This document shows positions 8,113 to 31,335 of a stretch of 56,051 bases of DNA, in pieces. Position numbers and translations under genes: made by a program. This DNA comes from a virus, in IMG/VR virus record IMGVR_UViG_3300025000_000126, positions 1 through 56,051 of that record; one strand, written 5' to 3'. Each line of letters begins with the position of its first letter. Position 1 is the stretch's first letter. The notes below the pieces were generated by a model. That model was given only the letters and a program-made list of their open reading frames with translations, made no database searches and was not told the origin of the DNA.

Positions 8113-8337
8113 ATGCTAGATTTCTACGTAAGTGAGAACGCTGTAGGATGTGAACCTCCTTGGAATTGTGAAGAATCTGTATTAGCTTCAAGATACTTCT
8201 GGAGCAGAATGATTTATTGCTCTGAAGAGTCTACATTTGGTAATAAATACTCATTGTATCAAAGGTTAGGATTTGCTACGGGTGGATTAATACATGAAAG
8301 TAATCTAATTAAGTTATTAGTAAAAAGGAGACTGTAA
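8113..8337 (+). CDS. Tail-motif mini-gene 1 (74 aa)
   Basis: First member of the repeated tiny-gene family. It begins with an F-Y-V strand, has the central R-M-I-Y motif near residue 36, and ends L-L-V-K-R-R-L. It aligns visibly with genes 16031, 16240 and 16467 in the core (W-S-R-M-I-Y, then Y-Q-R-L-G and G-G-L-I-H). The last codons read AAAAAGGAGACTGTAATG, so the tail encodes the ribosome site of gene 8337. Its own AAGGAGG lies 15 bases before the ATG, with a small AGCT-AAAT-AGCT hairpin in between that could shorten the spacing. Function unknown. Confidence 0.75.
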   Translation: MLDFYVSENAVGCEPPWNCEESVLASRYFWSRMIYCSEESTFGNKYSLYQRLGFATGGLIHESNLIKLLVKRRL

Positions 8338-8558
8338 TGAACAGTACTAAAAAAGAGGTTATATCAAAAGAGAAAGAAATAGAATATCCAGTCTTAATGA
8401 AATCAAAATACTCAGATTTTGTTATATTACTTGTAACTCCTAAAGTCGGAACTGTAGTATGGTCAAATGACTATTCATATGAAGTAGGGTATTGGTCATC
8501 CTCTTGGATTAAAGATTCCTTTGATTATTATGATGGAAAGATACTCTTAGAGAACTAA
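8337..8558 (+). CDS. Hypothetical protein, 73 aa
   Basis: Starts in the TAATG overlap at the end of mini-gene 1, whose final codons supply its Shine-Dalgarno. The N-terminus is charged (Lys/Glu). The rest is rich in Tyr, Trp, Ser and Asp with alternating strands. It does not carry the K-R-R-L tail. No family recognised. Confidence 0.6.
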   Translation: MNSTKKEVISKEKEIEYPVLMKSKYSDFVILLVTPKVGTVVWSNDYSYEVGYWSSSWIKDSFDYYDGKILLEN

Positions 8559-8723
8559 ATGAAAACATTTATTAAAAATAACTGGCATTGGTTGTGGAGA
8601 ATACCTGTAAACTTTTTTACTATTTTATCTGGGAGAATTCCAATATGGCTATTAGTAGCTTGTATCTTTATTTTTATGATTGATTTAATTATTCTAGGAA
8701 TAAGACTTCAAGAGGAGTTTTAA
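8559..8723 (+). CDS. Small membrane protein, 54 aa
   Basis: Follows the previous stop directly (TAAATG). An amphipathic Trp/Lys/Arg-rich N-terminus precedes a strong transmembrane segment at about residues 29-48 (I-W-L-L-V-A-C-I-F-I-F-M-I-D-L-I-I-L). One Asp lies inside the membrane run. Inner-membrane protein of unknown role; in the early arm it is more likely superinfection- or takeover-related than lytic. Confidence 0.5.
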   Translation: MKTFIKNNWHWLWRIPVNFFTILSGRIPIWLLVACIFIFMIDLIILGIRLQEEF

Positions 8724-8724
8724 T

Positions 8725-8916
8725 ATGTGCACCTGTAAGAGTGGTTCGATGTGTTCTCGAAAGCATACCATCCTAATCAATGGTATTCCTCAAGTAATCT
8801 TCAAGAGTAAGAAGGAGGCTATTGAGTTCTGTAAATCAGTCAAGAAAGATCCTAAGACTCCTGAAGAGTGGATCTTTGAAATCTCATGTAGCTGTGGAAC
8901 CATTAAGATTGAATAA
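8725..8916 (+). CDS. Cys-rich small protein, 63 aa
   Basis: Six Cys in C-x-C, a single C, C and C-x-C groups (M-C-T-C near the start, S-C-S-C near the end) suggest metal binding. The ribosome site AGAGGAG lies at 8711-8717. The stop overlaps the next ATG (TAATG). No named family. Confidence 0.6.
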   Translation: MCTCKSGSMCSRKHTILINGIPQVIFKSKKEAIEFCKSVKKDPKTPEEWIFEISCSCGTIKIE

Positions 8917-9206
8917 TGGCTATAGTAATCTTTAAGGATGTAGAAAGAATCATTCAGGAGGATGGAGACCAAATACGTCTATTTCCTAATGGTGGTTTTT
9001 TTGATTCTAGAGTTCAGGATATTTTAACTTCTGAAATGAAAAGGCTTCTAACCAATAATAGAAGAAGATTCTCTAAATATAAAAGAACTAGTGATAACTT
9101 TAATCCACCTAAGAAATTCTGTATTAATAATGAAGATTGGGACTGGTATGGTCTTTGGGTGAAGATGTACATACCAGATAACTTCAAGGTGAAGAGGATA
9201 CTATAA
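8916..9206 (+). CDS. Tail-motif gene, diverged member (96 aa)
   Basis: It ends F-K-V-K-R-I-L, encoded by AAGGTGAAGAGGATACTATAATG, the same tail-plus-ribosome-site arrangement as the mini-gene family. It opens with a strand (A-I-V-I-F). The middle is longer than in other members, Arg/Lys- and Asp/Trp-rich, and lacks a clear R-x-I-Y motif. It is therefore either a remote member or an unrelated gene whose 3' end was replaced by a family tail. Confidence 0.6.
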   Translation: MAIVIFKDVERIIQEDGDQIRLFPNGGFFDSRVQDILTSEMKRLLTNNRRRFSKYKRTSDNFNPPKKFCINNEDWDWYGLWVKMYIPDNFKVKRIL

Positions 9207-9658
9207 TGAGAAAAGGAGAACTGTTAGAAGAAGTATTAAGAGCCTCTGGTGCTACTTTCATCGAACGTGGCTCTGGATATAATGAATACAGATTAGGTTC
9301 TAATATTGTCTTCTGGAATGAATTTCCAGAACTCTTCATAGGATTTAGATTAAACGGTAAAGAGATAAATGAACTTGACCTTATAGATTTTATAAGATCT
9401 TATAAGGTCAATAGAAGGTTTGTAAAAGATAATAACGACACCCTTGTAGAGGTTCCTGAAGGACTACCACTCTGTAAGAACTGTAAGTTCTATAATTCAG
9501 TAGGCTTTACTACGTTTTGTAGTTCTGATACGTACAATACAGTAATTGATCCTGTCAATGGAACTAATCAGACCTTTAAGGCTAATTGTTTAGCTTGTAG
9601 GCTTGATATCAATATTAACGGTTGTGGTATCTTCGGGGATAGATATGAGAAAGGTTAA
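9206..9658 (+). CDS. Hypothetical Zn-ribbon protein, 150 aa
   Basis: Starts in the TAATG overlap with gene 8916. Residues 1-75 resemble a small alpha/beta domain. Residues 90-145 hold C-x-x-C (C-K-N-C), then C, C-x-x-C (C-L-A-C) and a final Cys, a plausible zinc-binding knuckle. No specific family assigned. It sits in the run of small genes just before the ATP-grasp gene. Confidence 0.6.
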   Translation: MRKGELLEEVLRASGATFIERGSGYNEYRLGSNIVFWNEFPELFIGFRLNGKEINELDLIDFIRSYKVNRRFVKDNNDTLVEVPEGLPLCKNCKFYNSVGFTTFCSSDTYNTVIDPVNGTNQTFKANCLACRLDININGCGIFGDRYEKG

Positions 9659-9683
9659 ATATAGTGGAAGAAGAGTGGTTTGA

Positions 9684-9803
9684 ATGAAGTATTGGATAAA
9701 GCAGTTCTCGACTTTATCTATTTATAAGTCAAGAAGTATAGCGTTTAGTAGGCTTAATTTCTTTGAGCCATTTATCCAACTATCTATTAAAAGGAGATTG
9801 TAA
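9684..9803 (+). CDS. Tail-motif mini-gene, short form (39 aa)
   Basis: Begins M-K-Y-W-I and ends P-F-I-Q-L-S-I-K-R-R-L. The central S-R-S-I motif and the P-F-I-Q-L run are shared with gene 11035, so these two are clear paralogues. The last codons (AAAAGGAGATTGTAATG) form a ribosome site, here for an 11-codon leader ORF at 9802. Function unknown. Confidence 0.6.
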   Translation: MKYWIKQFSTLSIYKSRSIAFSRLNFFEPFIQLSIKRRL

Positions 9804-9837
9804 TGACTATTAAGGGACAAGATAAACTAGAACGATA
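9802..9837 (+). CDS. Possible 11-aa leader peptide
   Basis: ATG 9802 overlaps the stop of gene 9684 and is served by that gene's AAAAGGAGA. It encodes M-T-I-K-G-Q-D-K-L-E-R and stops at 9837, four bases before a leader with alternative hairpins. It could be a true leader peptide or simply the remnant of a gene lost downstream of the mini-gene. Confidence 0.3.
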
Positions 9838-9840
9838 ATA

Positions 9841-9924
9841 TAGGGTCTACAATCCATTTTCATAAGAAAACAAGTTACCCTACAGGCTATCTACAGAAAA
9901 TCAAATGTAGGTGCCTTGTAGGGT
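9841..9924 (+). promoter_or_regulatory. Structured leader with alternative hairpins, copy A
   Basis: TAGGGT (9841-9846) can pair with ACCCTA (9877-9882), while ACCCTACAGGC (9877-9887) can pair instead with GCCTTGTAGGGT (9913-9924). These are mutually exclusive stems of the attenuator kind. Positions 9842-9884 resemble 10903-10945 (both contain CTACAATCCATTTTC and GAGTTACCCTACA or AAGTTACCCTACA). It lies immediately before the ATP-grasp gene. Confidence 0.5.
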
Positions 9925-9943
9925 CTAGAAGGGGGTATTTATA

Positions 9944-10723
9944 ATGAAACCTATAAGAATCTTACGGTATGGCCCTTCAGACAGCCTTAATAGACTTGTA
10001 GATTCTCTCAGAGAGTCTGAAGTTGATGTTAAGAAACTAAAGATGATCAACAGCTCTTACAGGGGATCTATTGATCATTTCATATTTAATTGGGGATCTT
10101 CAAGCTATAGAAATATAGCTAGTTGTAATATCTTCAATAGACCATCTGCTGTTGCTATTGCAGCTAACAAGCTGGATACATACTATACCTTGGAAAGAGC
10201 TGGACTTAATAATGTCCTTCCAGTGTGGTTTACTGATCCTGATTTAGCTAAGCATTACACTAAGAATGGATGTAAGGTATACTGTCGTACTACTCTTACT
10301 GGGTCTCAAGGGGAAGGGATTATAGTATCTACTGAACCTTCTGAAGTGGTTCATGCTTCTCTCTACACCCTTCAGGCCCCTGTATGTAGGGAAGTGAGAG
10401 TACATGTGTTTGCTGATGAAGTTATCTATTGTACAGAGAAACGTAAGATGAACTCTGAAAGGCTGGAAGAGGAATCTATTGAGTTCTCAAGGGATGTTCG
10501 TAACCTTGAGAATGGATGGGTATTCTGCCAAACAGAAGTACCTGAATCAGTGCAAAGTGTTGCAATTGATGTAGTAGAAAGGCTTGGTTTAGACTTCGGT
10601 GCTGTAGATATTGGTCTCTCTCACAGGAATGAACCTTTCATCTTTGAGGTTAATACAGCACCTGGATTGGAAGGAACTACACTGACTGCTTACAGGGATG
10701 CTATCATTGCACAACTATGTTAG
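9944..10723 (+). CDS. ATP-grasp carboxylate-amine ligase (RimK-like)
   Basis: 259 aa. ATP-grasp enzymes join a carboxylate to an amine through an acylphosphate. The nucleotide-binding loop is seen in T-L-T-G-S-Q-G-E-G-I-I-V at about residues 117-128. Conserved C-terminal metal ligands appear in D-F-G-A-V-D-I-G and in F-E-V-N-T-A-P-G, the standard RimK/D-Ala-D-Ala ligase signature. With the amidoligase at 11162 and the glutamine amidotransferase-like gene at 13176 it forms the peptide-modification set described in phages and bacteria. The substrate may be a host or virion peptide or cell-wall amine; the sequence does not say which. GGGGG lies shortly before the ATG. Confidence 0.85.
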   Translation: MKPIRILRYGPSDSLNRLVDSLRESEVDVKKLKMINSSYRGSIDHFIFNWGSSSYRNIASCNIFNRPSAVAIAANKLDTYYTLERAGLNNVLPVWFTDPDLAKHYTKNGCKVYCRTTLTGSQGEGIIVSTEPSEVVHASLYTLQAPVCREVRVHVFADEVIYCTEKRKMNSERLEEESIEFSRDVRNLENGWVFCQTEVPESVQSVAIDVVERLGLDFGAVDIGLSHRNEPFIFEVNTAPGLEGTTLTAYRDAIIAQLC

Positions 10724-10902
10724 AGTTCCTTTTAGGTACAGAGATTAATTACGCCTGGAGAAGAGGAATCTTATGGTATTCTCCAACCACAAATATGTAT
10801 GGGTGTTATTCCTTTAATCACCCAAAGCGTTATGTAAGGGAAATGTTTAATGGTGACTACCCACGTGGGAGAACTCTATTAAAGGTGAAGAGGAGACTAT
10901 AA
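10717..10902 (+). CDS. Tail-motif mini-gene (61 aa)
   Basis: Starts within the last codons of the ATP-grasp gene (ATGTTAG overlap). It begins M-L-E-F-L-L and ends L-L-K-V-K-R-R-L, encoded by AAAGGTGAAGAGGAGACTATAAGG. The middle is Tyr/Trp/Arg-rich. No ATG follows the tail, which runs instead into leader copy B. Unknown function; family assigned by the N-terminal strand and the tail. Confidence 0.6.
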   Translation: MLEFLLGTEINYAWRRGILWYSPTTNMYGCYSFNHPKRYVREMFNGDYPRGRTLLKVKRRL

Positions 10903-11034
10903 GGTATCTACAATCCATTTTCCATTAAAGATGAGTTACCCTACACACCTATACCTAAAGATTAAACCTAGGGGCCTTCTAGCCCCTTCTAAAGCGAAAT
11001 AAAGTGGAGCTTTTACTTCTAGGAGGTATTTCAT
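10903..11034 (+). promoter_or_regulatory. Structured leader, copy B
   Basis: 10903-10945 repeats the CTACAATCCATTTTC ... GAGTTACCCTACA block of copy A (9842-9884). Downstream, GGGGC-CTTCTA-GCCCC (about 10971-10986) forms a short stem, followed by AGGAGG at 11021-11026, the ribosome site for gene 11035. Two related leaders directly after mini-gene tails suggest the leader travels with them or controls both transcripts. Confidence 0.45.
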
Positions 11035-11160
11035 GTGACATATTGGATACAAGTATGGTCTAGTAGAGATTATCTAGGAGATTCAAGAAGTATTGTAGTC
11101 TCTTATAGAGGTATGTATTTTCCTCCTTTCATACAACTGAAGGTTAAAAGGAGACTGTAA
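11035..11160 (+). CDS. Tail-motif mini-gene, short form (41 aa)
   Basis: GTG start at 11035 with AGGAGG eight bases upstream. It reads V-T-Y-W-I at the start, S-R-S-I-V in the middle and P-F-I-Q-L-K-V-K-R-R-L at the end, and is clearly paralogous to gene 9684. The terminal AAAAGGAGACTGTAAG is the ribosome site for GTG 11162. Unknown function. Confidence 0.6.
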   Translation: MTYWIQVWSSRDYLGDSRSIVVSYRGMYFPPFIQLKVKRRL

Positions 11161-11161
11161 G

Positions 11162-12997
11162 GTGGTAGAGTTCTCCTTAACCTATAAGGATGATGATGGT
11201 TGGTTTCAATTTGTAAGGAGTATAAACTATACTAAAGAAGATATATTTTACTATTTCTATAAGGATGGAGGTCGTATAAGAAGTATACATGATTATAATT
11301 ATTATGATTTAGAAAAACCACTAACTAAAAGGAACCTAACTATGCCTACTCAAACTGAGTGTTTGTGTGTTAACTGTCATGAGAATATTACTGATCCTGA
11401 TTTCAGAGTGGTACTCTACCAGGAAGAGTATCCTGAGATTGAGATTGGTCCTTACTGTGAACAATGCCTTGCAAGAGTTAAGATCTGTAGTGGGTGTCAG
11501 AAACCTGCTATGATAGATACTGTAACTCATGTAGGTAGTGGGTTGCATTACTGTTCTGAGTGTGTAAAAAACCTTGAGATCTGTAGTCACTGTGGATCTC
11601 AGGTAAGTGGTGGTACTACTGTTATAAATGGAAAGAAGGTATGTAACTCCTGTAGGGAGTCTTACTATTTCTTGTGTAAGAGTTGTAATACCTATCACCA
11701 CCAGTATGGCTCAGTATCTCATAATTCCTTTGAGGGTCTTCAAAGAGCTGGTATGTTCAAGAAGTATGGGAATCTTGTATGTAAAGAGTGCTTTGAAAGA
11801 CGTAAGCCATTCTACAAGAAATATGAAGTATCTACCTGTAGTCACTGTGAAAGATACTTTACTATCACTGACCCCTCCCAGACAGAGTTCTGTCAGAGCT
11901 GTTATGATGGTTTTGATACTTGCAGTATCTGTGGTGATAAAAATCCACATGTTCATGCAGCAAGGGTTGAAGGTGAAGGACTTTTTATCTGCAAGAGTTG
12001 TATTAAGAAGTATAACAAATGCGATCACTGTAATCGCTTGACAAAAGATAAACTTCATGTTATAAAAGGTAGAACAAATACCTATACTGTATGCTCTGAG
12101 TGCCACTCTTTTTATCGTATCTGTAAGGTTTGTGGATCATTTACAAGTAATGAAAGTTGTGTCTGTAATACTTGTGATAATACCTACGTAAATAATATCT
12201 GTGAGGTTTGTGGGAGAATTAAGGACGGTTCAGGAAACTGTAGGGTCTGTCATGAATCCTTCATCTACAGGTACTCTGAGAAACCTCCATTGTTCTTCAA
12301 TGTATCAAAAAAGGATAAGACCAAGGATATCTTCTTTGGCTTCGAGAATGAAACTACCTATGGAGACTCTTACACTGATAAGAATATTGCCCTTAAAGAA
12401 ATCTATAAGGTGTATGATCCTACCATCCTCCTGTGTAAGAGTGATGGGTCTATCAGGGGTGAAGGGTTTGAGATAGTTACACAACCAATGACCTATCAGT
12501 TCTTTAATGATACTTCATGGGCTGGTCTCTTCCAGGATGGTATTAAGAAGAGTAAGTCATGTGGACTTCATGTTCATGTAGAACGTCATGCATTCTTATC
12601 TGATATACATCTCTATAAGGTGTGTAATTTTATCTATGAAAATAAACTGTTTATCAAATATATAGTAGGTCGTGATAGTAATGAATACTGTAAGGACTTT
12701 AGGTATAAAGTATCTACAGAGATTAAAAATGCTAAGATGAAGAGAACTGAAAGGCATCAAGCAGTTAACTTCAATAACAGTAATACTATTGAATTCCGCA
12801 TGTTTGCTGGATGTACTACAGAGAAGGAACTTAGATATAAGATTGAGTTTCTTCATGCTCTTGTAACCTACCAGAAGACTACACCTATCAGTACCTGCAA
12901 GGATCTTCTTCTCTTCAAGGAATATGTCAGAGAGAATGAGAAGACTTATTCTAACCTGTTTGTAAAGGTGAAGAGGTATGCCTTGCCGAGGATGTAA
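11162..12997 (+). CDS. Amidoligase with N-terminal zinc ribbons and a fused mini-gene
   Basis: 611 aa. Residues 1-60 (11162-11341) look like a mini-gene without a stop: V-E-F-S-L strand, R-I-R-S-I-H motif, and P-L-T-K-R-N-L tail. ATG 11342 has its own AAAAGGAAC site and is probably the ancestral start (551 aa). Residues 68-370 hold many C-x-x-C pairs, a string of treble-clef or LIM-like zinc ribbons. Residues 390-595 carry amidoligase hallmarks: F-G-F-E-N-E, K-S-D-G-S-I, L-H-V-H-V-E and I-E-F-R-M-F. Amidoligases of the glutamine-synthetase fold form amide or peptide bonds and pair with ATP-grasp and GATase genes, as here. The C-terminus ends F-V-K-V-K-R then a short extension, itself resembling a mini-gene tail and overlapping the next mini-gene start. 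Confidence 0.82.
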   Translation: MVEFSLTYKDDDGWFQFVRSINYTKEDIFYYFYKDGGRIRSIHDYNYYDLEKPLTKRNLTMPTQTECLCVNCHENITDPDFRVVLYQEEYPEIEIGPYCEQCLARVKICSGCQKPAMIDTVTHVGSGLHYCSECVKNLEICSHCGSQVSGGTTVINGKKVCNSCRESYYFLCKSCNTYHHQYGSVSHNSFEGLQRAGMFKKYGNLVCKECFERRKPFYKKYEVSTCSHCERYFTITDPSQTEFCQSCYDGFDTCSICGDKNPHVHAARVEGEGLFICKSCIKKYNKCDHCNRLTKDKLHVIKGRTNTYTVCSECHSFYRICKVCGSFTSNESCVCNTCDNTYVNNICEVCGRIKDGSGNCRVCHESFIYRYSEKPPLFFNVSKKDKTKDIFFGFENETTYGDSYTDKNIALKEIYKVYDPTILLCKSDGSIRGEGFEIVTQPMTYQFFNDTSWAGLFQDGIKKSKSCGLHVHVERHAFLSDIHLYKVCNFIYENKLFIKYIVGRDSNEYCKDFRYKVSTEIKNAKMKRTERHQAVNFNNSNTIEFRMFAGCTTEKELRYKIEFLHALVTYQKTTPISTCKDLLLFKEYVRENEKTYSNLFVKVKRYALPRM

Positions 12998-13172
12998 CCA
13001 ATCAGGAACTAGTATTTCTGATTATAATAGTGAAGTAGAGACCTATGGAATCATTTTGTATAATCACTTTAAAGAGATACGGAATGATATCTATTTATCC
13101 TGTCAGCAGTGTTATGAAGATGACCTCCCAAGTAAAACAACTCTTGGTCTATTAATCAAAAGGAGACTTTAA
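12978..13172 (+). CDS. Tail-motif mini-gene (64 aa)
   Basis: ATG 12978 lies inside the 3' end of the amidoligase, directly after AAGGTGAAGAGG, which is both a family tail sequence and a Shine-Dalgarno. It carries N-D-I-Y-L-S in the middle and ends L-L-I-K-R-R-L (ATCAAAAGGAGACTTTAATATATG), giving the ribosome site for gene 13176. The N-terminus is atypical (C-R-G-C) and may bind metal with a later C-x-x-C. Unknown function. Confidence 0.6.
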   Translation: MPCRGCNQSGTSISDYNSEVETYGIILYNHFKEIRNDIYLSCQQCYEDDLPSKTTLGLLIKRRL

Positions 13173-13175
13173 TAT

Positions 13176-14060
13176 ATGTGCATAGCTATTTATAAGCCTG
13201 TAGGAAAAGAACTCTCTGAGGCTGTACTTAAAACCTGCTTCAATAATAATAATGATGGAGCAGGGTTCGCTTATATTTCAACGGATTATCACGGTGTTAA
13301 GAGGGTAAAGTTAAAGAAGTTTATGAAGTTTGATCAGTTCTATACAGCCTATAAGAGGGCTACTGATACAGCCCCTGACAGCCCCTTCATTATTCACTTT
13401 AGAATTGGTACACATGGTGAGAAGACAGTATACAACTGTCATCCTTTCTATGTGGATAAGAACCTTGTATTCATCCATAATGGTATCATCTCAGGTGTTG
13501 GTACCGACGTTAAGAAGTCAGATACACAACTCTTTAATGATAAGATCTTGAAGAAGCTACCAAAAGGATGGGAATCTAATGAAGCTATCCAAGAGTTGAT
13601 AGCTGATTATATTGGTTACTCTAAGCTCATCTTCCTAAATGTATTAGGTGAAGTGTATATTGTAAATGAGAAGAAAGGTAACTGGAATGATGGTATTTGG
13701 TTTAGTAATGAGTCCTACAAGGAGAGGACATATACACCACATACTACTTATAGCTCTGGAAGATATCCAGTAACTACATACAGAAATAAATGGTGGGAAG
13801 TTTCCTTCCACACGGTAGAGACCTGTGATTTCTGTAATGGTGCTAAACCTCTCAGGTCTCTCACAGTCTATAAGGATATAGATAATCCTCTTGATGTTAT
13901 CTTCATATGCAATCAGTGTCATAAAGAAGTAACTGATAATTGTATTCTTAGTGCTAATGAAATGATTCCTTTGTATAAGTACATAGAGGAAGAGAATAAG
14001 CGTCTTGCAATTGTGCATGACAAAAGTATCTTTACAGATGAACAAACCTATATGATGTAA
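13176..14060 (+). CDS. Class II glutamine amidotransferase-like protein
   Basis: 294 aa. Cys2 directly after the initiator Met (M-C-I-A-I-Y) is the N-terminal nucleophile of Ntn-type amidotransferases, which free ammonia from glutamine. Supporting motifs are D-G-A-G-F-A near residue 27, F-R-I-G-T-H-G near 74 and F-I-H-N-G-I-I-S near 99, the normal substrate-pocket sequence. Residues about 215-250 add C-x-x-C ... C-x-x-C, a zinc ribbon. It likely supplies ammonia to the ATP-grasp/amidoligase pair above. Function in the phage is inferred from context. Confidence 0.8.
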   Translation: MCIAIYKPVGKELSEAVLKTCFNNNNDGAGFAYISTDYHGVKRVKLKKFMKFDQFYTAYKRATDTAPDSPFIIHFRIGTHGEKTVYNCHPFYVDKNLVFIHNGIISGVGTDVKKSDTQLFNDKILKKLPKGWESNEAIQELIADYIGYSKLIFLNVLGEVYIVNEKKGNWNDGIWFSNESYKERTYTPHTTYSSGRYPVTTYRNKWWEVSFHTVETCDFCNGAKPLRSLTVYKDIDNPLDVIFICNQCHKEVTDNCILSANEMIPLYKYIEEENKRLAIVHDKSIFTDEQTYMM

Positions 14061-14065
14061 CCTCT

Positions 14066-14248
14066 ATGAGAATCTTTGCTATTAGAGTTCCTCATAGTTG
14101 CCTAGAAGAGATATATGAAAACTATAGAAGTATATACATAAGTAGACCAAATAATAATTCTAACTATGTATGGCATGGTAGCTTTAGGTCCTGTTGTCAG
14201 ACAAGAAAAACAAAAAGACTATTAGTTAGAAGGTTATATAATGAATAG
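14066..14248 (+). CDS. Tail-motif mini-gene (60 aa)
   Basis: Begins M-R-I-F-A-I-R-V, has Y-R-S-I-Y-I-S in the middle and W-H-G-S-F-R-S, and ends R-L-L-V-R-R-L plus three residues. The R-S-I-Y and H-G-S-F blocks match the next gene (14241), so the two are sister copies. Its last bases overlap the next start (ATAATGAATAG). Confidence 0.65.
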   Translation: MRIFAIRVPHSCLEEIYENYRSIYISRPNNNSNYVWHGSFRSCCQTRKTKRLLVRRLYNE

Positions 14249-14417
14249 AGAATTCTATATTCGAGTAAGAGGTTCAGACGAATATTACCCTGGAAGAGTG
14301 CGGAGTATATACTGTACAGGGAGAGACGGTCTTAATAGAAATAGTGTAGAGAATATATATCATGGTTCTTTTTGTTCTATTAGTGGTAAACTTATCAAGA
14401 AACTAAAGGTGAAATGA
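14241..14417 (+). CDS. Tail-motif mini-gene (58 aa)
   Basis: Begins N-R-E-F-Y-I-R-V, with V-R-S-I-Y-C-T and Y-H-G-S-F-C-S in the middle, and ends K-K-L-K-V-K. The truncated tail (AAAGGTGAAATGA) overlaps the primase-helicase start as ATGA and supplies its AAAGGTG ribosome site. Sister copy of gene 14066. Confidence 0.65.
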   Translation: MNREFYIRVRGSDEYYPGRVRSIYCTGRDGLNRNSVENIYHGSFCSISGKLIKKLKVK

Positions 14418-16030
14418 ATAATAGAGAGTGTCCTAAGTGCAGGGATGTTGGTAGAGATAAGACAGGTGATCACTTATGGCTCATGCGTGACGGAAAGACA
14501 TGGTGCTGTCTGAAACCCTACCATCCTCCCTACTACGAAAGAGATAACGAGGAATGTGAGGCTCCTGAAGAAATGCAAATACAACTAGAAGATGTAAAAA
14601 CTTTACCATGCTACGGAAACATAGATCGAAAGATCAGTAAGGAAACTCATCAGCACTTTAAGGTAAGGACAGAACTTAACGAGACCAACAGAACCCCCTC
14701 AGTTATATACTATCCAGAGACTTCAAGGGGAAAATTCATTGGTTATAAGCAGAGAATATTACCTAAGAGATTTGTTTCCTTACTAAAACCTGAGAGCAAG
14801 GGTTTAGTTCCTGATTTCTTTGGTCAACCTGTATGTCCTCAGACAGGGAAGAGACTTCTCATATGTGCAGGGGAGGAAGATACACTAGCTGCCTATGAGA
14901 TGTTAAAGAGTAAATACCCAGAAGTTGAACCATGTGTTGTAGGATTACCAAGGGGTGAGAGTGGTACTACTACAATCTCTGAGAACCTAGAGTTCCTGAA
15001 AGGGTTTGAAGAGGTTATAATAGGTACTGATATGGATGAAGCTGGCAGGAAAGCAGTCTCCTGCATAGCTCCTATTATTGGAGAGAGGGCTAGAGTTCTT
15101 GTCCTGTCAGAGAAAGATATCTCTGACATGAGGGTTAAGGGGAAAGATAAAGAGTTCATCAATGCTTTCTTCAATGCTAGAGAATATCGTCCAGTTAATG
15201 TGGTATCTGTATCTGATATCCTTGATAGAGCTATTACCCCTAGGCCTTGGGGTTTATCTTATCCCTTTCAGAAACTTACTCAGATGTCTTACGGGTTGAA
15301 GGAAGGTGGTGAGACCATCTCTATTGGTGCTGGTCCAGGGTGTGGAAAGACCACTCTAATGTATCAGATACAGCAACACTTAATGTTTGAACATAAAGAA
15401 CGTATAGCTATCTTCAACCTTGAAGAGAAGGCTGAAGGTGCCTTGAATCATCTCATAGGTACTATGATGAATAAGCCTATTCATAGACCTGATTGTGTAT
15501 ATGATCTTGAGGAAGCTAGAAGGGCTGGTGAATTGCTTGAGGGTAAAGCAGAGTTCTATGATGGTTTCTCTGAGGATTGGAATGAAGTTGAATCTCAAGT
15601 GAGATACTTTGCTAGTAAGGGTATAAGGTTTTACTTTATTGATCCTGTATCTGCATTGGTAGAACACCTCTCCCCTTCAGATGCTAACACAGAGCTTGGT
15701 AGAATCTACAGATCTATTAGAAAGTTTAGGATGGAGCAGGGTCTTACATTCTTTATTGTCAACCACCTTAATAATCCTCAAAGTGGTAAGGATCATGGTG
15801 CTGGAGGGGATGTATATGGGTCACAGTTCTCTGGTAGTAGAGCACAATGGAAGTACTCAACAGCACTGTGGGGTCTGGTAAGGGATCAATTAGCTGATGA
15901 TCCAGATGAGCGTAACAAGGTTAAGCTGTCAGTAATTAAAGACAGATTAGGTGGTAATACTGGGTATGTATACTTGAAGTATAACACAGCAACTGGTAAG
16001 CTGGAGGAAGAGTTCAATGAGGAATTTTAA
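14414..16030 (+). CDS. Primase-helicase (T7 gp4-like)
   Basis: 538 aa, bifunctional replication enzyme that primes and unwinds at the fork. The N-terminal zinc-binding domain has C-P-K-C near residue 5 and C-C about 28 residues later. A TOPRIM domain follows: E in A-G-E-E-D-T near 156 and D-x-D in G-T-D-M-D-E-A-G near 200. The RecA/DnaB-type helicase has Walker A G-P-G-C-G-K-T-T at about 307-314, Walker B F-Y-F-I-D-P near 410 and I-V-N-H-L near 450. Domain order and length are those of T7-type gp4. It lies between mini-genes, upstream of the polymerase. Confidence 0.92.
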   Translation: MNNRECPKCRDVGRDKTGDHLWLMRDGKTWCCLKPYHPPYYERDNEECEAPEEMQIQLEDVKTLPCYGNIDRKISKETHQHFKVRTELNETNRTPSVIYYPETSRGKFIGYKQRILPKRFVSLLKPESKGLVPDFFGQPVCPQTGKRLLICAGEEDTLAAYEMLKSKYPEVEPCVVGLPRGESGTTTISENLEFLKGFEEVIIGTDMDEAGRKAVSCIAPIIGERARVLVLSEKDISDMRVKGKDKEFINAFFNAREYRPVNVVSVSDILDRAITPRPWGLSYPFQKLTQMSYGLKEGGETISIGAGPGCGKTTLMYQIQQHLMFEHKERIAIFNLEEKAEGALNHLIGTMMNKPIHRPDCVYDLEEARRAGELLEGKAEFYDGFSEDWNEVESQVRYFASKGIRFYFIDPVSALVEHLSPSDANTELGRIYRSIRKFRMEQGLTFFIVNHLNNPQSGKDHGAGGDVYGSQFSGSRAQWKYSTALWGLVRDQLADDPDERNKVKLSVIKDRLGGNTGYVYLKYNTATGKLEEEFNEEF

Positions 16031-16243
16031 ATGAACTTCTATGTGTGTAGAGATTATAAAGGCTGTGTACCTAATAGGTTAGATGGAAGACCTTTCTCTA
16101 AAGCCTTCTGGTCAGGTCTTATATACACTGATAGGGGTGTTATTGATAATTATGTATCTATACTTCAGAAGCTAGGACTTTGTAGAGGGGGTATAGTGAG
16201 AGGTCACCAAATTAAACCATTAATAATTAAAAGAGTTCTATGA
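16031..16243 (+). CDS. Tail-motif mini-gene (70 aa)
   Basis: Begins M-N-F-Y-V-C, has G-L-I-Y-T-D in the middle, L-Q-K-L-G, and G-H-Q-I-K-P-L-I-I-K-R-V-L at the end. It is obviously homologous to 16240 and 16467; the first five residues and G-H-Q are shared with 16240. The terminal AAAAGAGTTCTATGA overlaps the next start. The first of three in tandem before the polymerase gene. Confidence 0.75.
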   Translation: MNFYVCRDYKGCVPNRLDGRPFSKAFWSGLIYTDRGVIDNYVSILQKLGLCRGGIVRGHQIKPLIIKRVL

Positions 16244-16470
16244 ACTTCTATGTGTGTATAAACTCTTATGAGTGTGTAGATCCAGAGATATATGATGATG
16301 GACTTGATGCAGATACTACAGACCCTGATAGGTTCTGGTTTGAAAGACTTATCTATACAGAAACAGTAGATGAAATGTACCTCTCTATAGCTCAAAAGTT
16401 AGATAAGGTATGGGGAGGATTTGTATATGGTCATCAAGTGAGACCTCTATTAGTTAAGAGAAGGCTATGA
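16240..16470 (+). CDS. Tail-motif mini-gene (76 aa)
   Basis: M-N-F-Y-V-C-I start, R-L-I-Y-T-E core, A-Q-K-L-D, and G-H-Q-V-R-P-L-L-V-K-R-R-L end. Overlaps the gene on each side by four bases (ATGA). The middle is acidic (D-A-D-T-T-D-P-D). Recent tandem duplicate of the neighbours. Confidence 0.75.
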   Translation: MNFYVCINSYECVDPEIYDDGLDADTTDPDRFWFERLIYTETVDEMYLSIAQKLDKVWGGFVYGHQVRPLLVKRRL

Positions 16471-16676
16471 GATTCTTTATATGTATAAGTGGGAAAGGAT
16501 GTTGCAGTAGCCATAATAGTGGTCACCATTTCTTCAACAGATTAATCTACATAGAAACTCCAGATGGTGTTGACTATATATCTTTACTTCAACGTATAGA
16601 TTACCATGCAGTAAGAGGTAGTGGATATGTAAGTGACTCTCAGGTGAAAGAACTAAAGGTTAAACGTGAAATCTAA
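16467..16676 (+). CDS. Tail-motif mini-gene (69 aa)
   Basis: M-R-F-F-I-C start, N-R-L-I-Y-I-E core, L-L-Q-R-I-D, and V-K-E-L-K-V-K-R-E-I end. The tail overlaps the start of the polymerase gene by 11 bases, with GTG 16666 lying inside the tail codons (AAAGGTTAAACGTGAAATC). Family membership is clear. Confidence 0.75.
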   Translation: MRFFICISGKGCCSSHNSGHHFFNRLIYIETPDGVDYISLLQRIDYHAVRGSGYVSDSQVKELKVKREI

Positions 16677-17373
16677 AATCATCTTTGACATAGAAGGTAA
16701 CAATCTACTATATGGTATCTCTAAAATATGGTGTATCTGCACCTATAATATAACCACTAGAGAAAGTCTACAGTTCTATGAAGATACCCTAGTAGATGGT
16801 CTTAAGTTGCTGCAAGATTCTGACTTGATCATTGGTCATAACATAACAGGGTTCGATCTGCCTGCTATAAAGAAACTATATCCTTGGTGGACATACAAAG
16901 ATATAAGAGATACTTATGTGATGTCTAAGTTGTTTAATCCTGATAGAGCACAAGGTCATTCATTAGAATCTTATGGTGAGCAATTCAGTAGGGCAAAACC
17001 AAAGCATGAGGACTGGACTCAGTTCTCTCCAGAGATGTTATATAGGTGCTCTGAAGATGTAGAAATCAATAAGTTGACATATGAATTTCTAGTACAAAGA
17101 TACTGCCAGGATTGGTCGTGGATAGAAGCTCTCAAATTAGAGCAGCAGTTCGCTATCTACCAGGCTTACCAAGAACTGGCAGGGGTTGATTTTGATGTAC
17201 AAAAAGCTAAGGATCTTCTAGTCCTTATAGACTCTGAAGTTGACAAGTTAGATAAAGAGTTGTATAATAGGATACCTAAGAGGGTAAAACAAGTAGGAGC
17301 TACAGTGACTAAACCATTTAAGAAGAATGGAGAGTATACAGTACAGGTGGAGAGGTGGATACATGGAGATTGA
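16666..17373 (+). CDS. DNA polymerase, N-terminal (3'-5' exonuclease) half
   Basis: 235 aa of a T7-type family A polymerase. Exonuclease motifs are complete: Exo I F-D-I-E-G-N, Exo II I-G-H-N-I-T-G-F-D, and Exo III C-S-E-D-V-E-I-N. The GTG start overlaps the preceding mini-gene tail. The polymerase frame is intact up to V-Q-V-E-R-W and then runs into the ATG of mini-gene 17363, ending after four foreign residues. The matching C-terminal half restarts at 17878. In relatives these are one protein, so here the polymerase is either made as two chains or rejoined by an unknown route. Confidence 0.85.
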   Translation: MKSKIIFDIEGNNLLYGISKIWCICTYNITTRESLQFYEDTLVDGLKLLQDSDLIIGHNITGFDLPAIKKLYPWWTYKDIRDTYVMSKLFNPDRAQGHSLESYGEQFSRAKPKHEDWTQFSPEMLYRCSEDVEINKLTYEFLVQRYCQDWSWIEALKLEQQFAIYQAYQELAGVDFDVQKAKDLLVLIDSEVDKLDKELYNRIPKRVKQVGATVTKPFKKNGEYTVQVERWIHGD

Positions 17374-17539
17374 GTTCTGGTTAGGGTATGATTTTAAGAA
17401 TATATGTAATAAAAAGCTAATAAGATCTATAGGAACAAGTAGGTATTCTGACGGGGTAGTTTTTATTTATTACAGTAGCATAGACATGGTTTGTCACAGG
17501 TGTAAGCAACTAAAGGTGAAGAGATGCTATTCTATTTGA
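17363..17539 (+). CDS. Tail-motif mini-gene inside the polymerase gene, copy 1 (58 aa)
   Basis: Starts at ATG 17363 in polymerase DNA that reads AGGTGGAGAGGTGG just upstream, close to a family tail (AGGTGAAGAGG) and usable as a ribosome site. Begins M-E-I-E-F-W, with I-R-S-I-G-T-S in the middle, and ends Q-L-K-V-K-R-C-Y-S-I. The AAGGTGAAGAG of the tail serves the next start (ATG 17524). Confidence 0.65.
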   Translation: MEIEFWLGYDFKNICNKKLIRSIGTSRYSDGVVFIYYSSIDMVCHRCKQLKVKRCYSI

Positions 17540-17694
17540 GGAAGAATCCTACAGCTAGTAATCATTTTCGATGTAGAACTATTTATAAAGGTAAGGGGGG
17601 TTTATGGTTAAAAGGTGGTGATGGAAACTTATGGGATCTTATGTCTCCACCCTTTAAGATTATGTATCAACTTAAAATCAAGAGGGTTCTGTAA
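17524..17694 (+). CDS. Tail-motif mini-gene inside the polymerase gene, copy 2 (56 aa)
   Basis: M-L-F-Y-L start, C-R-T-I-Y-K core, and M-Y-Q-L-K-I-K-R-V-L end. It is Gly/Lys/Trp-rich in the middle. It overlaps copy 1 by 16 bases, and its final AAGAGGGTTCTGTAAGATG supplies the ribosome site for copy 3. Confidence 0.6.
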   Translation: MLFYLRKNPTASNHFRCRTIYKGKGGLWLKGGDGNLWDLMSPPFKIMYQLKIKRVL

Positions 17695-17695
17695 G

Positions 17696-17881
17696 ATGAT
17701 AGAATTTTATATACAGAAAGTATACTTTGATAGTATTAGAACTAATGAACACACTACAAGGGGTATATTTCATACTCACTTTGGTGATCATAAAACTTTA
17801 GGTAGCCTAGGTAAATACTATTGGAACTTAAACGCTCAACCTTATAATGTTATGTATAAGTTAAAGGTTAAACCAATGTGA
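17696..17881 (+). CDS. Tail-motif mini-gene inside the polymerase gene, copy 3 (61 aa)
   Basis: M-I-E-F-Y-I start and V-M-Y-K-L-K-V-K-P-M end. The M-Y-x-L-K-[VI]-K run matches copy 2. Its tail AAAGGTTAAACCAATGTGA overlaps the GTG start of the polymerase C-terminal half by four bases, so that half is expressed by coupling. Confidence 0.65.
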   Translation: MIEFYIQKVYFDSIRTNEHTTRGIFHTHFGDHKTLGSLGKYYWNLNAQPYNVMYKLKVKPM

Positions 17882-19315
17882 ACATACAAGGCCCTTTCAC
17901 CCGTATAGAATACCGAGAAATCAACTTAGACTCCTCCCAGCAGGTTAAGGATTATCTGCTTAGTGTTGGGTGGATACCTACACAGTATAATATTAATAAG
18001 GAGACTAGAGAACCTACAAGCCCTAAACTGACAGAAGATTCCTTCAGTAGTATTAAGGATGATACAGGAATCTTACTCGCTAAGAGGGCTATCTTAGTAC
18101 ATAGACGTAGACAGATAGAGAATTACAAAGACCCAGAGAATAAGGGTCTGTTAGCTTACGTAAGGGATGATGGTAGGATACCTGCTGCTGGTATTACATG
18201 TGCTACTCCAACCGGAAGAACAACTCACAGAATTTGTGTGAACATTCCGAAGGCAGACCCTAAGATCCTACTAGGGAAAGAGATGAGGGAGTTGTTCATC
18301 TGCCTCCCCCCTTACAAGATGGTTGGGTGTGATTTAGCTGCTATAGAGAATAGATTACTTGGACACTTCGTATCACAGTTTGATGGTGGTGCCTACTGGA
18401 ATCATATGAACTCTGTAGAGGACCCGCACCAGTATAATGCAGATCTGTTAGGGTGTTCAAGAAACACTGCGAAGACATGGATCTATGCGTTAAAACACAA
18501 GCGCATATAAAACTCATTGAACTCAGGAAACATCTAAGATCTTATTGACTGTAGGAGTTGTGACCTTTGGTACAGATTATGACGATCCTGATCGAAGCTT
18601 TAATTCTTATTGGTTGTGCTTTAAGAGTTGAAGAACGAGCAACGACTATCCCGTAAGGGAGTACACTCAAGCGAGTGGAAGCGGTGAGATCCAAAAAGCA
18701 TGAATAAACATGCTCGAAAGAATCTACGGTGGTAGATTTAAGTAGTGGACTAATGTCCTATGGATATGATATAGTCTGATCTATATGGAAACATATAGCT
18801 GTCTTTGGACGGGTAGTAATTAGCGACTACTACTGAACACTAATGTTATGTTTGGAGCCTCTGCCAGGAAGCTTGCCAGTATCCTTGGTTGTTCTCTAGA
18901 AGAATCAGAAGAGAAGATGGCAGTATTCTGGGCAGCAAACCCTGGCCTTAAAGGTCTAATAGATTCCTTAGAGAAATACTACAGAAAGAACAAGTGTCTT
19001 GTAGGTCTTGATGGTAGGAGGTTGTCTGTAAGGGGAAGACATAAGTTACTCAACACTCTTATCCAATCCTCTGCTGCTATTATCTTTAAAAGATGGAACC
19101 TTATAGCTAATGCAAGGATCTTGCAGGTTGGTCTAGATGCAACACAGATTATTGCTATGCACGATGAGTATCAATATAGGGTATTAGATGTAGACGTTGA
19201 AGATACTTGCAAAGTATTAGTAGAATCTGCAAGAGATGCTGGGTCTTATTATTCATTAAGAGTTCCTATCGAAGCTGAGTGCAAATACGGAGAAAACTGG
19301 TACGAAACACACTAA
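17878..19315 (+). CDS. DNA polymerase, C-terminal (polymerase) half; two exons
   Basis: Join 17878-18490 and 18846-19315 gives 360 aa. The sequence opens in the linker before the polymerase fold (G-P-F-T-R-I-E-Y) and carries motif A G-C-D-L-A-A-I-E-N-R, motif B R-N-T-A-K-T-W-I-Y-A-F then M-F-G-A, and motif C M-H-D-E-Y. Motif B is complete only after the 355-base group I intron is removed; the joined frame then matches T7 polymerase residue for residue in register (I-Y-A-F-M-F-G-A against I-Y-G-F-L-Y-G-A). The GTG start lies in the tail of mini-gene 17696. With the exonuclease half the enzyme would total about 590 aa. Confidence 0.87.
18491..18845 (+). ncRNA. Group I intron in polymerase motif B (no ORF)
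   Basis: The exon end UAUGCGU (to 18490) pairs with GCGCAUA (18501-18507) to make P1, with the expected U-G pair at the 5' splice site. P7 is visible as GACTAT (18644-18649) with ATAGTC (18771-18776) in the typical GATATAGTC context. The intron ends in G at 18845. Removing these 355 bases restores a continuous polymerase frame. There is no endonuclease ORF inside, so it must rely on a nuclease elsewhere or has lost its own. Confidence 0.88.
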
Positions 19316-21692: not shown

Positions 21693-22131
21693 TCCATTTA
21701 AAAGTACACTAGAACATAAGATTGCTACAAGGGTACTGACAGAATATCTCTATGAACCTAAAGGATCTGGTATAGAATATACAGTACCTCATGTATATAA
21801 CCCTGACTTCATACACCCGCAGCAGCCTGATATTATTATAGAAGTGAAAGGTTACTTCATTAAGGGTCATTCAGATTGCCAGAAATATATTGCAGTAGCT
21901 AGAGATAATCCAGATAAGGAGCTTGTATTTATCTTCAGCGATCCTGATAAGAAGGCTTATGGGCAGTGTCGGGAGAGGAAGGATGGGACCTTTATGACAC
22001 TTGCAGAATGGAGTAGAAAGAATAACTTCCTATATTTCCATGCTGATAAGGTGCCTAGAGATCTCTGTAAGGGGAGATGGAATATAGATCAGGTTAGAGA
22101 ATATAAAAATAAATTCTATGGGAGATCTTAA
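21673..22131 (+). CDS. T7 endonuclease I-like Holliday-junction resolvase
   Basis: 152 aa. The start is taken as TTG 21673 because GGAGG (21661-21665) sits seven bases before it; the longer upstream reading overlaps the exonuclease deeply. Catalytic pattern P-D-F ... P-D-I-I-I-E-V-K-G (residues 36-55) matches the restriction-like PD-(D/E)xK core of endonuclease I, with a preceding Glu in T-L-E-H-K. It resolves branched DNA before packaging. Ends in TAATG with the HNH gene. Confidence 0.82.
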   Translation: MSRKKINPFKSTLEHKIATRVLTEYLYEPKGSGIEYTVPHVYNPDFIHPQQPDIIIEVKGYFIKGHSDCQKYIAVARDNPDKELVFIFSDPDKKAYGQCRERKDGTFMTLAEWSRKNNFLYFHADKVPRDLCKGRWNIDQVREYKNKFYGRS

Positions 22132-22661
22132 TGGATTATGAAAGATTAAAAGAAGTTTTGGAGTATAATCCAGACACTGGAGTATTCACTTGGATAGTTA
22201 AAAAAACTTATAAACGTGACAAAGGTAGTAAGGCTGGTAAAGTGCATAGTGCGGGTTATATCTCTATAGGAATAGATGGGAAGCAATACCTTGCTCATAG
22301 ATTAGCTTGGCTTTTCTATTATGGTTATCTACCAGAAAATTGTATAGATCATATTAATGGTAGTAAGACAGATAATAGTATACATAATTTAAGAGAGGTA
22401 TCAAAATCTTGTAATGCTTTTAATTCAAAGATAAATGTGCTAAATAAATCAGGAATAAAAGGTATTTCCTTAGATACAGAAAGGAATAAATATGTTGTCA
22501 GGTTTAAAAATAAAAATAGATATCTTTTTATAGGCAGATTTGATGACCTTATTGAAGCTACAGCTCATCGGTTAGCAATAGAACAGTGTACTGGTACAGA
22601 AGTTTGTGAGAGATCTCCAGCTTTTGCATGTATAGAAAATTATAGGAGAAGAAACTATTGA
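22131..22661 (+). CDS. Free-standing HNH homing endonuclease with AP2-like domain
   Basis: 176 aa. The HNH core shows Y-L-A-H-R-L-A-W, then C-I-D-H-I-N-G, then N-S-I-H-N-L-R near residues 52-90, the HNH_3 type. Residues 105-145 (S-G-I-K-G-I-S, R-F-K-N-K, F-I-G-R-F) resemble the AP2 DNA-binding fold common behind such nucleases. It sits between endonuclease I and the phosphoesterase and shares overlap with both, so it appears to have slotted neatly into an operon. The gene is somewhat more AT-rich than its neighbours, as expected for a recent arrival. Confidence 0.85.
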   Translation: MDYERLKEVLEYNPDTGVFTWIVKKTYKRDKGSKAGKVHSAGYISIGIDGKQYLAHRLAWLFYYGYLPENCIDHINGSKTDNSIHNLREVSKSCNAFNSKINVLNKSGIKGISLDTERNKYVVRFKNKNRYLFIGRFDDLIEATAHRLAIEQCTGTEVCERSPAFACIENYRRRNY

Positions 22662-30804: not shown

Positions 30805-30848
30805 AAAGGGCTATAGATTCCGAGAGGTTTCTATAGCCCTTTTTTATT
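30805..30848. terminator. Bidirectional rho-independent terminator between convergent arms
   Basis: AAAGGGCTATAGA (30805-30817) and TCTATAGCCCTTT (30830-30842) form a perfect 13-bp stem with a 12-base loop. A T-run follows on the plus strand, and the opposite strand shows TTTCTTGTTTTT, so it can stop both arms where they meet. Confidence 0.9.
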
Positions 30849-31335
30849 TATTTTCTAAATACCTTATAGCATTATGCAAGAGATTTATATCATCCTTTAA
30901 AAACCCTATACCACAGTTACAACTACTACACAACAAGCCTCTCACAATTCCTGTAGTATGGTCATGATCTATACAATAATTTTTATTAGAGTCTGGATTA
31001 ACTAAACTACATCCACAGATTGAACAACAACCCCCTTGCTCATCCATTAGATCCCTAATAAACTCCTCACTAACTTTATATTTATTGTGTACTTTAGCTC
31101 TATCAGTGTAGATGAAAGCTTCTTTATACTTCTCCCTATGCCGCTTAGCGTACTCCTTACTCTTCTCTGGGTTATAAACGTATACTCTATTCTTTTGCCT
31201 TTTAGCGTTTATCTTAGCTCTGTTATTCTTTTGATACATTGATGCGCGAGCCTTAACACAATCCTTACAACTGTTTCTCTTATTATAGAAGTCTTCTATG
31301 TCTTTCTCTTCTCCGCAACTTTTACATATTTTCAT
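30844..31335 (-). CDS. Recombination endonuclease VII-like HNH nuclease
   Basis: 163 aa. The N-terminus has C-K-S-C and C-K-D-C, a zinc knuckle. The C-terminal half has C-S-I-C, C-I-D-H-D-H-T-T-G, R-G-L-L-C-S-S-C-N, and G-F-L-K-D-D, the T4 endonuclease VII pattern. Phage genomes use this fold both as a junction resolvase and as a homing nuclease. Since endonuclease I (21673) already supplies resolution, and this gene sits alone at the end of the arm, a mobile origin is plausible. Confidence 0.82.
   Translation of the reverse strand: MKICKSCGEEKDIEDFYNKRNSCKDCVKARASMYQKNNRAKINAKRQKNRVYVYNPEKSKEYAKRHREKYKEAFIYTDRAKVHNKYKVSEEFIRDLMDEQGGCCSICGCSLVNPDSNKNYCIDHDHTTGIVRGLLCSSCNCGIGFLKDDINLLHNAIRYLENK

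Follow-up and report, generated by a model that had tools for sequence, protein, structure and literature searches.

The DNA polymerase of the phage studied here is encoded as two separate chains, an exonuclease chain (N chain) and a polymerase chain (C chain), with three orphan mini-genes lying between them. The window analyzed comprises 56,051 bases and represents an entire IMG/VR contig, classed as linear. We consider it very probable that the two-chain enzyme is the only DNA polymerase of this phage and that the gap between the chains is a site for exchangeable short cistrons. The two cistrons together cover the whole enzyme, both chains are maintained by selection, and the break is inherited across whole clades of relatives as little as 55% identical.

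Gene organization around the break

The genes around the break are tightly packed (Table 1). The N chain starts with a GTG located within the tail of the preceding mini-gene, and the ATG of mini-gene 1 in turn sits within the final codons of the N chain. Mini-genes 1 and 2 have 16 nt in common, mini-gene 3 starts 1 nt past mini-gene 2, and the GTG of the C chain overlaps the stop codon of mini-gene 3 by 4 nt. A first-pass annotation had described three genes between the halves and a GTG restart in the tail of the third, and both features were recovered as ORFs. With 504 nt separating the stop at 17373 from the restart at 17878, the gene does not encode a single continuous polypeptide.

Table 1. 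Features of the window in and around the split polymerase gene
Feature	Positions	Strand	Remarks
Further mini-gene family members (8113, 10717, 11035, 12978, 14066, 14241)	8113..14417	+	At other gene boundaries
Primase-helicase-like protein	14414-16030		Early region, upstream of three mini-genes
Three tandem mini-genes (16031, 16240, 16467)	16031..16676	+	Between primase-helicase and N chain
N chain: 3'-5' exonuclease domain and first thumb helix	16666..17373	+	235 aa; ORF
Mini-gene 1 (58 aa)	17363..17539	+	Orthologue L139:1974-2150
Mini-gene 2 (56 aa)	17524..17694	+	Partial orthologue at the edge of L018 (27-128)
Mini-gene 3 (61 aa)	17696..17881	+	Orthologues L018:130-318 and L139:2816-3004
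C chain exon 1: remaining thumb, palm motif A, start of fingers	17878..18490	+	phrog_17, E 5e-30; probable end, placed by comparison with uninterrupted relatives and by the group I convention of a U preceding the splice site
Group I intron	18491..18845	+	Rfam RF00028 match 18437-18798; boundaries inferred
C chain exon 2: fingers and palm with HDE motif C	18846..19315	+	PF00476, E 4e-16; phrog_17, E 6.5e-32

The N chain ends with EYTVQVERW-IHGD followed by a stop codon, as had been annotated; the description of the last four residues as foreign was too strong, and they are not clearly so. In most split relatives, the exonuclease chain ends with W-I and a few variable residues (e.g., WIGEQ, WINENL, WIGEIK, and WIGGDRHE); another ending is WFSI. 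An assembly error at the junction is ruled out by L018, an independent contig with a 97% identical polymerase half and the same mini-gene/GTG junction, and contig L139 carries both polymerase halves with five genes between them. The label "T7-like" given to the phage holds for the replication module only, since no T7-type RNA polymerase gene was seen in the contig.

A perfect sigma-70 consensus (TTGACA-17-TATAAT; 12/12) occurs inside the exonuclease ORF (17240-17268, + strand), 95 bases upstream of mini-gene 1, where about 0.1 such sites per window are expected by chance. Both hexamers are kept in L002, in which changes are found in the spacer only, and the site was not seen in L031, L032, or L035. 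This candidate promoter may drive the mini-genes and the C chain.

Identity, completeness, and selection

Both halves match the PHROG DNA polymerase phrog_17, the first at positions 669-889 (E 2e-33) and the second at the consecutive positions 895-1072 (E 5e-30). The N chain additionally matches the exonuclease-subunit family phrog_403 (E 2e-11), and the PF00476 match on exon 2 exceeds its cut-off. A profile of intact relatives found T7 gp5 at 1e-124 to 1e-126, and the exonuclease, thumb, palm, and fingers are homologous to those of T7-type family A DNA polymerases. The exonuclease residues D8, E10, D64, and D131 are kept in the N chain, and the C chain carries motif A (D152), motif B (K199 and Y203), and motif C (MHDEYQ). 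The break had been assigned to a variable linker before GPFTRI, and alignment to uninterrupted relatives agrees with this placement. About 6-14 residues separate the conserved W of KPFKKNGEYxxxVxxW from the G of GPFTRI in intact relatives; the two ends sum to 8-18 residues in split relatives and to 8 (4 + 4) in the window. Because these lengths match those of intact relatives, no conserved residue has been lost.

A family A search of the 56-kb contig gave one match (i.e., exon 2), and searches of the same contig for family B and bacterial polIII (polC) enzymes gave none. The contig therefore yielded no continuous alternative polymerase, which the first-pass annotation had named as an objection to its own reading. 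Likewise, none of ten relatives, seven of which are 38-61 kb long, contains a second family A enzyme.

The dN/dS ratio was 0.097 for the exonuclease (window versus L002) and 0.042 and 0.155 for polymerase exons 1 and 2 (window versus L018), with values of 0.06-0.09 in two other split pairs (L004/L113 and L031/L032). The mini-genes gave 0.33-0.78, and a neighboring core gene gave 0.05. Both chains are thus under strong purifying selection, whereas the mini-genes drift.

A group I intron in the C chain

The polymerase ORF stops at 18510 and resumes at 18848 owing to a group I intron (75.7 bits against a gathering score of 50; E 1.7e-17) located in the fingers (motif B). The restart of the polymerase half had been annotated correctly, but its division into two exons around this intron had not been reported. 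The intron limits were placed from intact relatives, in which the flanking pieces abut, together with the usual U/G rule, giving GCG-TTT-ATG-TTT across the joint. The same intron is present in L018 and absent from L031, L032, and L139. The polymerase ORFs of L033 and L034 stop at this point too, although Rfam found no intron there. In L139, the polymerase gene is interrupted once more, for about 1.2 kb after TGRT (L139:3354-4539), probably by another intron. Elsewhere in the window, two ORFs (22131-22661, + strand; 30844-31335, - strand) read, by eye, like HNH/endonuclease VII-type homing enzymes.

Location of the break in the thumb

We modeled the intact relative L042 (594 aa; mean pLDDT 90.3), whose best structural match is T7 DNA polymerase (2ajq; Z 37.4, 540 residues, 29% identity). 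The break maps to loop 232-242 of this model, between helix 225-231 and strand 243-249. In a profile alignment with T7 gp5, the exonuclease chain stops short of about residue 310, and the restart is close to residue 319. Judged from the model, the break is in the thumb-tip loop, inside the thioredoxin-binding segment of T7 gp5, which we take to be residues 258-333. The model has thumb helices on both sides of the break. With thumb elements on both chains, the thumb must be built from both, and the chains must assemble. This two-sided thumb of the model is the strongest structural argument for the assembly that we infer. The thioredoxin-binding domain of T7 has been placed near residue 300, and E319 and E330 have been described as contact residues (PMC5984650).

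Distribution of the break

We scanned IMG/VR with single sequences and alignments, followed by frame-by-frame checks of the candidates, and found a break at the same loop in 19 contigs, including the window (the L018 contig covers just the downstream side). In a tree of 44 rows based on the exonuclease plus polymerase, the split forms fall into three clades, in each of which every member is split: clade A (10 rows, 100/100; the window, L018, L139, L031-L035, L132, and L138), clade B (3 rows, 99/95; L004, L112, and L113), and clade C (6 rows, 100/100; L007, L048, L141, L143, L144, and L146). Intact relatives fall between these clades. AU tests on an earlier 39-row tree rejected a single clade of all split rows (p 5.7e-36), as well as B plus C (p 0.005) and A plus B (1e-6) as single clades. 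An internal start as a predisposition to splitting was also considered and rejected; a ribosome site with a start codon is located at the break in 1/20 intact relatives, against a background of 0.23.

A second recurrent break lies at the exonuclease/thumb border (L010, L011, L039, L052, L064, L070, L088, L089, L105, and L109). In these contigs, the exonuclease (about 150 aa) and the thumb-palm-fingers portion are separate genes, with other genes between them in several cases (e.g., an ORF of L089 that reads like a uracil-DNA glycosylase). Since many relatives are broken at this border, breaks in this polymerase family are frequent but confined to few sites.

Contents of the gap

The genes in the gap differ among the clades and even within the clade of the window. 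The window and L018 have orthologous mini-genes in common, and L139, which is 93% identical to the window across the first 114 polymerase residues compared, carries four mini-genes and a dCMP deaminase-like gene (PF00383, E 2e-8). The gap of L132 (clade A) holds three mini-genes and, immediately upstream of the polymerase start, a gene of the endonuclease VII family (PF02945, E 1e-21). Four genes of another family are present in L034, and a profile comparison gave no signal of their kinship with the mini-genes of the window. Other small ORFs occupy the gaps of L004, L007, L048, and L146.

L113 has no cargo; its exonuclease and polymerase frames overlap directly, and it is one base away from a continuous gene, so this clearest cargo-free case might be a sequencing error. 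L004 and L113 form a filled/near-empty pair, in which a start-codon word (ATGAA) flanks the L004 insert and occurs once at the L113 junction. This arrangement suggests insertion or deletion between start codons.

The mini-gene family

With some exceptions, the 12 members in the window open with M-x-F-Y-[IVL], carry a central R-x-I, and close with LKVKR-x-L. The tail pattern is found in 11 ORFs on the + strand and in none on the - strand, whereas Markov-shuffled sequence gives 0.2; one of the 11 (ORF 26730) probably matches by chance. Many gene boundaries in the early region carry mini-genes, and those of the late region do not. Among 33 members from four genomes, 28 contain a ribosome-site-like word within the last 24 nt, and a 4-nt stop/start overlap occurs in 21/33. 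These final 24 nt are also enriched threefold in AGG arginine codons (odds ratio 3, p 0.002). The constant tail therefore serves, at least in part, as a signal for translating the following cistron. The mini-gene preceding the polymerase ends with KPM/KPV rather than KR, leaving a weak ribosome site (in the window, AAAGG 10 nt upstream of the polymerase start), which may keep the C chain low. Other tandem short genes occur at the same gene boundaries in L034, L035, and L138, with the tails WVKRLEKC, LKRKE, and LKELV.

The mini-genes matched no family in Pfam or PHROGs, and a profile search of the PDB gave one match at chance level. A structural model (pLDDT 79, pTM 0.67) had weak matches only, chiefly SH3 domains with E values of 0.27 or poorer, and no viral structure gave a convincing match. 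The model offers at most a hint of a small-barrel fold.

Proposed mechanism and alternative explanations

The first-pass annotation read the two halves as a split enzyme, and the lack of a second polymerase in the contig, the purifying selection on both halves, and the inheritance of the break through clades support that reading. We propose that the N and C chains would be translated as separate cistrons of one operon message by coupled translation, the C chain after self-splicing of the intron in the mRNA, and that they would then fold together across the thumb into an active polymerase. The break sits in a variable loop on the enzyme surface, at the position that the thioredoxin-binding insertion occupies in T7 polymerase, so that interrupting the chain there would cost little. 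Once opened, the gap could gain, lose, and swap short cistrons, provided that each restarts translation for the next. The end codons of a mini-gene would usually form the ribosome-binding site of the following gene and would often overlap its start; arrays encoding the next start signal in their own tails could therefore grow without silencing the genes downstream.

An alternative is that the halves are rejoined at the RNA or protein level, by splicing out of the insert, by ribosomal bypass, or through a split intein, to yield one full-length polymerase. A true group I intron is located 600 bases downstream in the same gene, and the halves starting at 16666 and 17878 share a frame, which would favor rejoining. 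However, Rfam detected no RNA family in 17250-17990 on either strand at E values up to 5, and the gap is filled with overlapping cistrons whose length and content vary between lineages. The chains extend only about 4 residues past their conserved ends, leaving no room for intein halves, and we know of no precedent for ribosomal bypass of more than 500 nt. Rejoining is thus very improbable. The idea that the polymerase is a decaying gene, its exonuclease and polymerase remnants left over in a phage that relies on the host enzyme, appears scarcely credible. The gene is indeed broken at several places (the split and the intron, with one more interruption in L139), and a host polymerase could in principle replace that of the phage; nevertheless, dN/dS is 0.04-0.16 on all three pieces, the motif residues are kept, and the other clades are equally constrained. 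The sharing of the split by relatives down to 55% identity also counts against decay.

The two-chain reading leaves room for different origins of the break. A split that happened once, in an ancestor shared by clades A, B, and C, and was then reversed by several re-fusions would fit the identical restart motif (M/V-N-I-x-GPF) in split members from all three clades, but this motif also follows from the conserved GPF neighborhood. Parsimony requires 3 changes for separate breaks and more for one break plus fusions, given the intact relatives between the clades, and no scar of a start signal was seen in intact linkers. Three separate breaks represent the simplest reading, and a single split is improbable. 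Somewhat unlikely is an origin through a homing endonuclease that disrupted the gene, as happened in T4-like phages, and whose place was subsequently taken by mini-genes. The endonuclease VII-family gene in the L132 gap, inside clade A, and the precedents of seg43 and mobE (PMC2988022) point in this direction. Against it, the gap of L132 is the only one in which such a gene was seen, and the window gap holds three mini-genes without Pfam or PHROG matches. Such an origin would account for how the break arose, not for its present state, and is compatible with the two-chain reading. More tentatively, and with some doubt, the thumb tip may be a convergent docking site for accessory cistrons. The same loop would have been opened in three lineages, and in that of the window, orphan mini-genes linked by translational coupling, most of which bear the ribosome site of the neighboring gene, would spread as cassettes among gene boundaries and into the polymerase.

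An essential polymerase seems to double here as a landing site for accessory genes. If this is true, a family A replicase that occurs naturally as two chains, severed within the thumb, would provide a template for laboratory split polymerases, and one loop of an essential enzyme would have been broken open on several occasions and would have given accessory genes a place. It would also be a clear case of small-gene arrays that sustain translation by encoding the start signal of the next gene in their own tails, which would make gene gain inside an essential operon cheap.

Comparison with known systems

The arrangement resembles gene 43 of the T4-like Aeromonas phages 25 and 44RR, in which the replicative polymerase is encoded in two cistrons separated by a seg43 gene or an untranslated spacer; for phage 25, the gp43A and gp43B chains co-purify and polymerize (PMC2988022). 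Those enzymes belong to family B and are associated with homing-endonuclease cargo, whereas the enzyme of the window belongs to family A, is broken at the thumb tip, and is associated with tandem mini-genes, with such breaks in three lineages. Closer in polymerase family are the OM43 phages MEP401 and MEP402 (Zobellviridae), whose family A polymerase is encoded by two ORFs around a small ORF and for which the authors of the MEP401 study suspected an intron (PMC10580990). The MEP401 break lies just before palm motif A and contains one small ORF, in contrast to the thumb-tip break of the window. In the MEP401 genome (OP830906; L126:3112-5222), the downstream chain restarts at MILNADAKALEW after a 77-aa ORF, representing a third break site.

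A literature search on tandem coupled small genes and on exonuclease/polymerase subunit splits found nothing further. PHROG 403-type systems, found in many IMG/VR relatives, also encode the exonuclease apart, often with small genes between; their break is at the border of the exonuclease and thumb domains, whereas that of the window is inside the thumb. T7 gp5, the closest solved structure, tolerates an insertion at the same place, but its insertion is continuous and binds host thioredoxin, whereas in the window the chain is open there. Split phage polymerases are already known; what is new is the convergent break at the thumb tip and the mini-gene cassettes.
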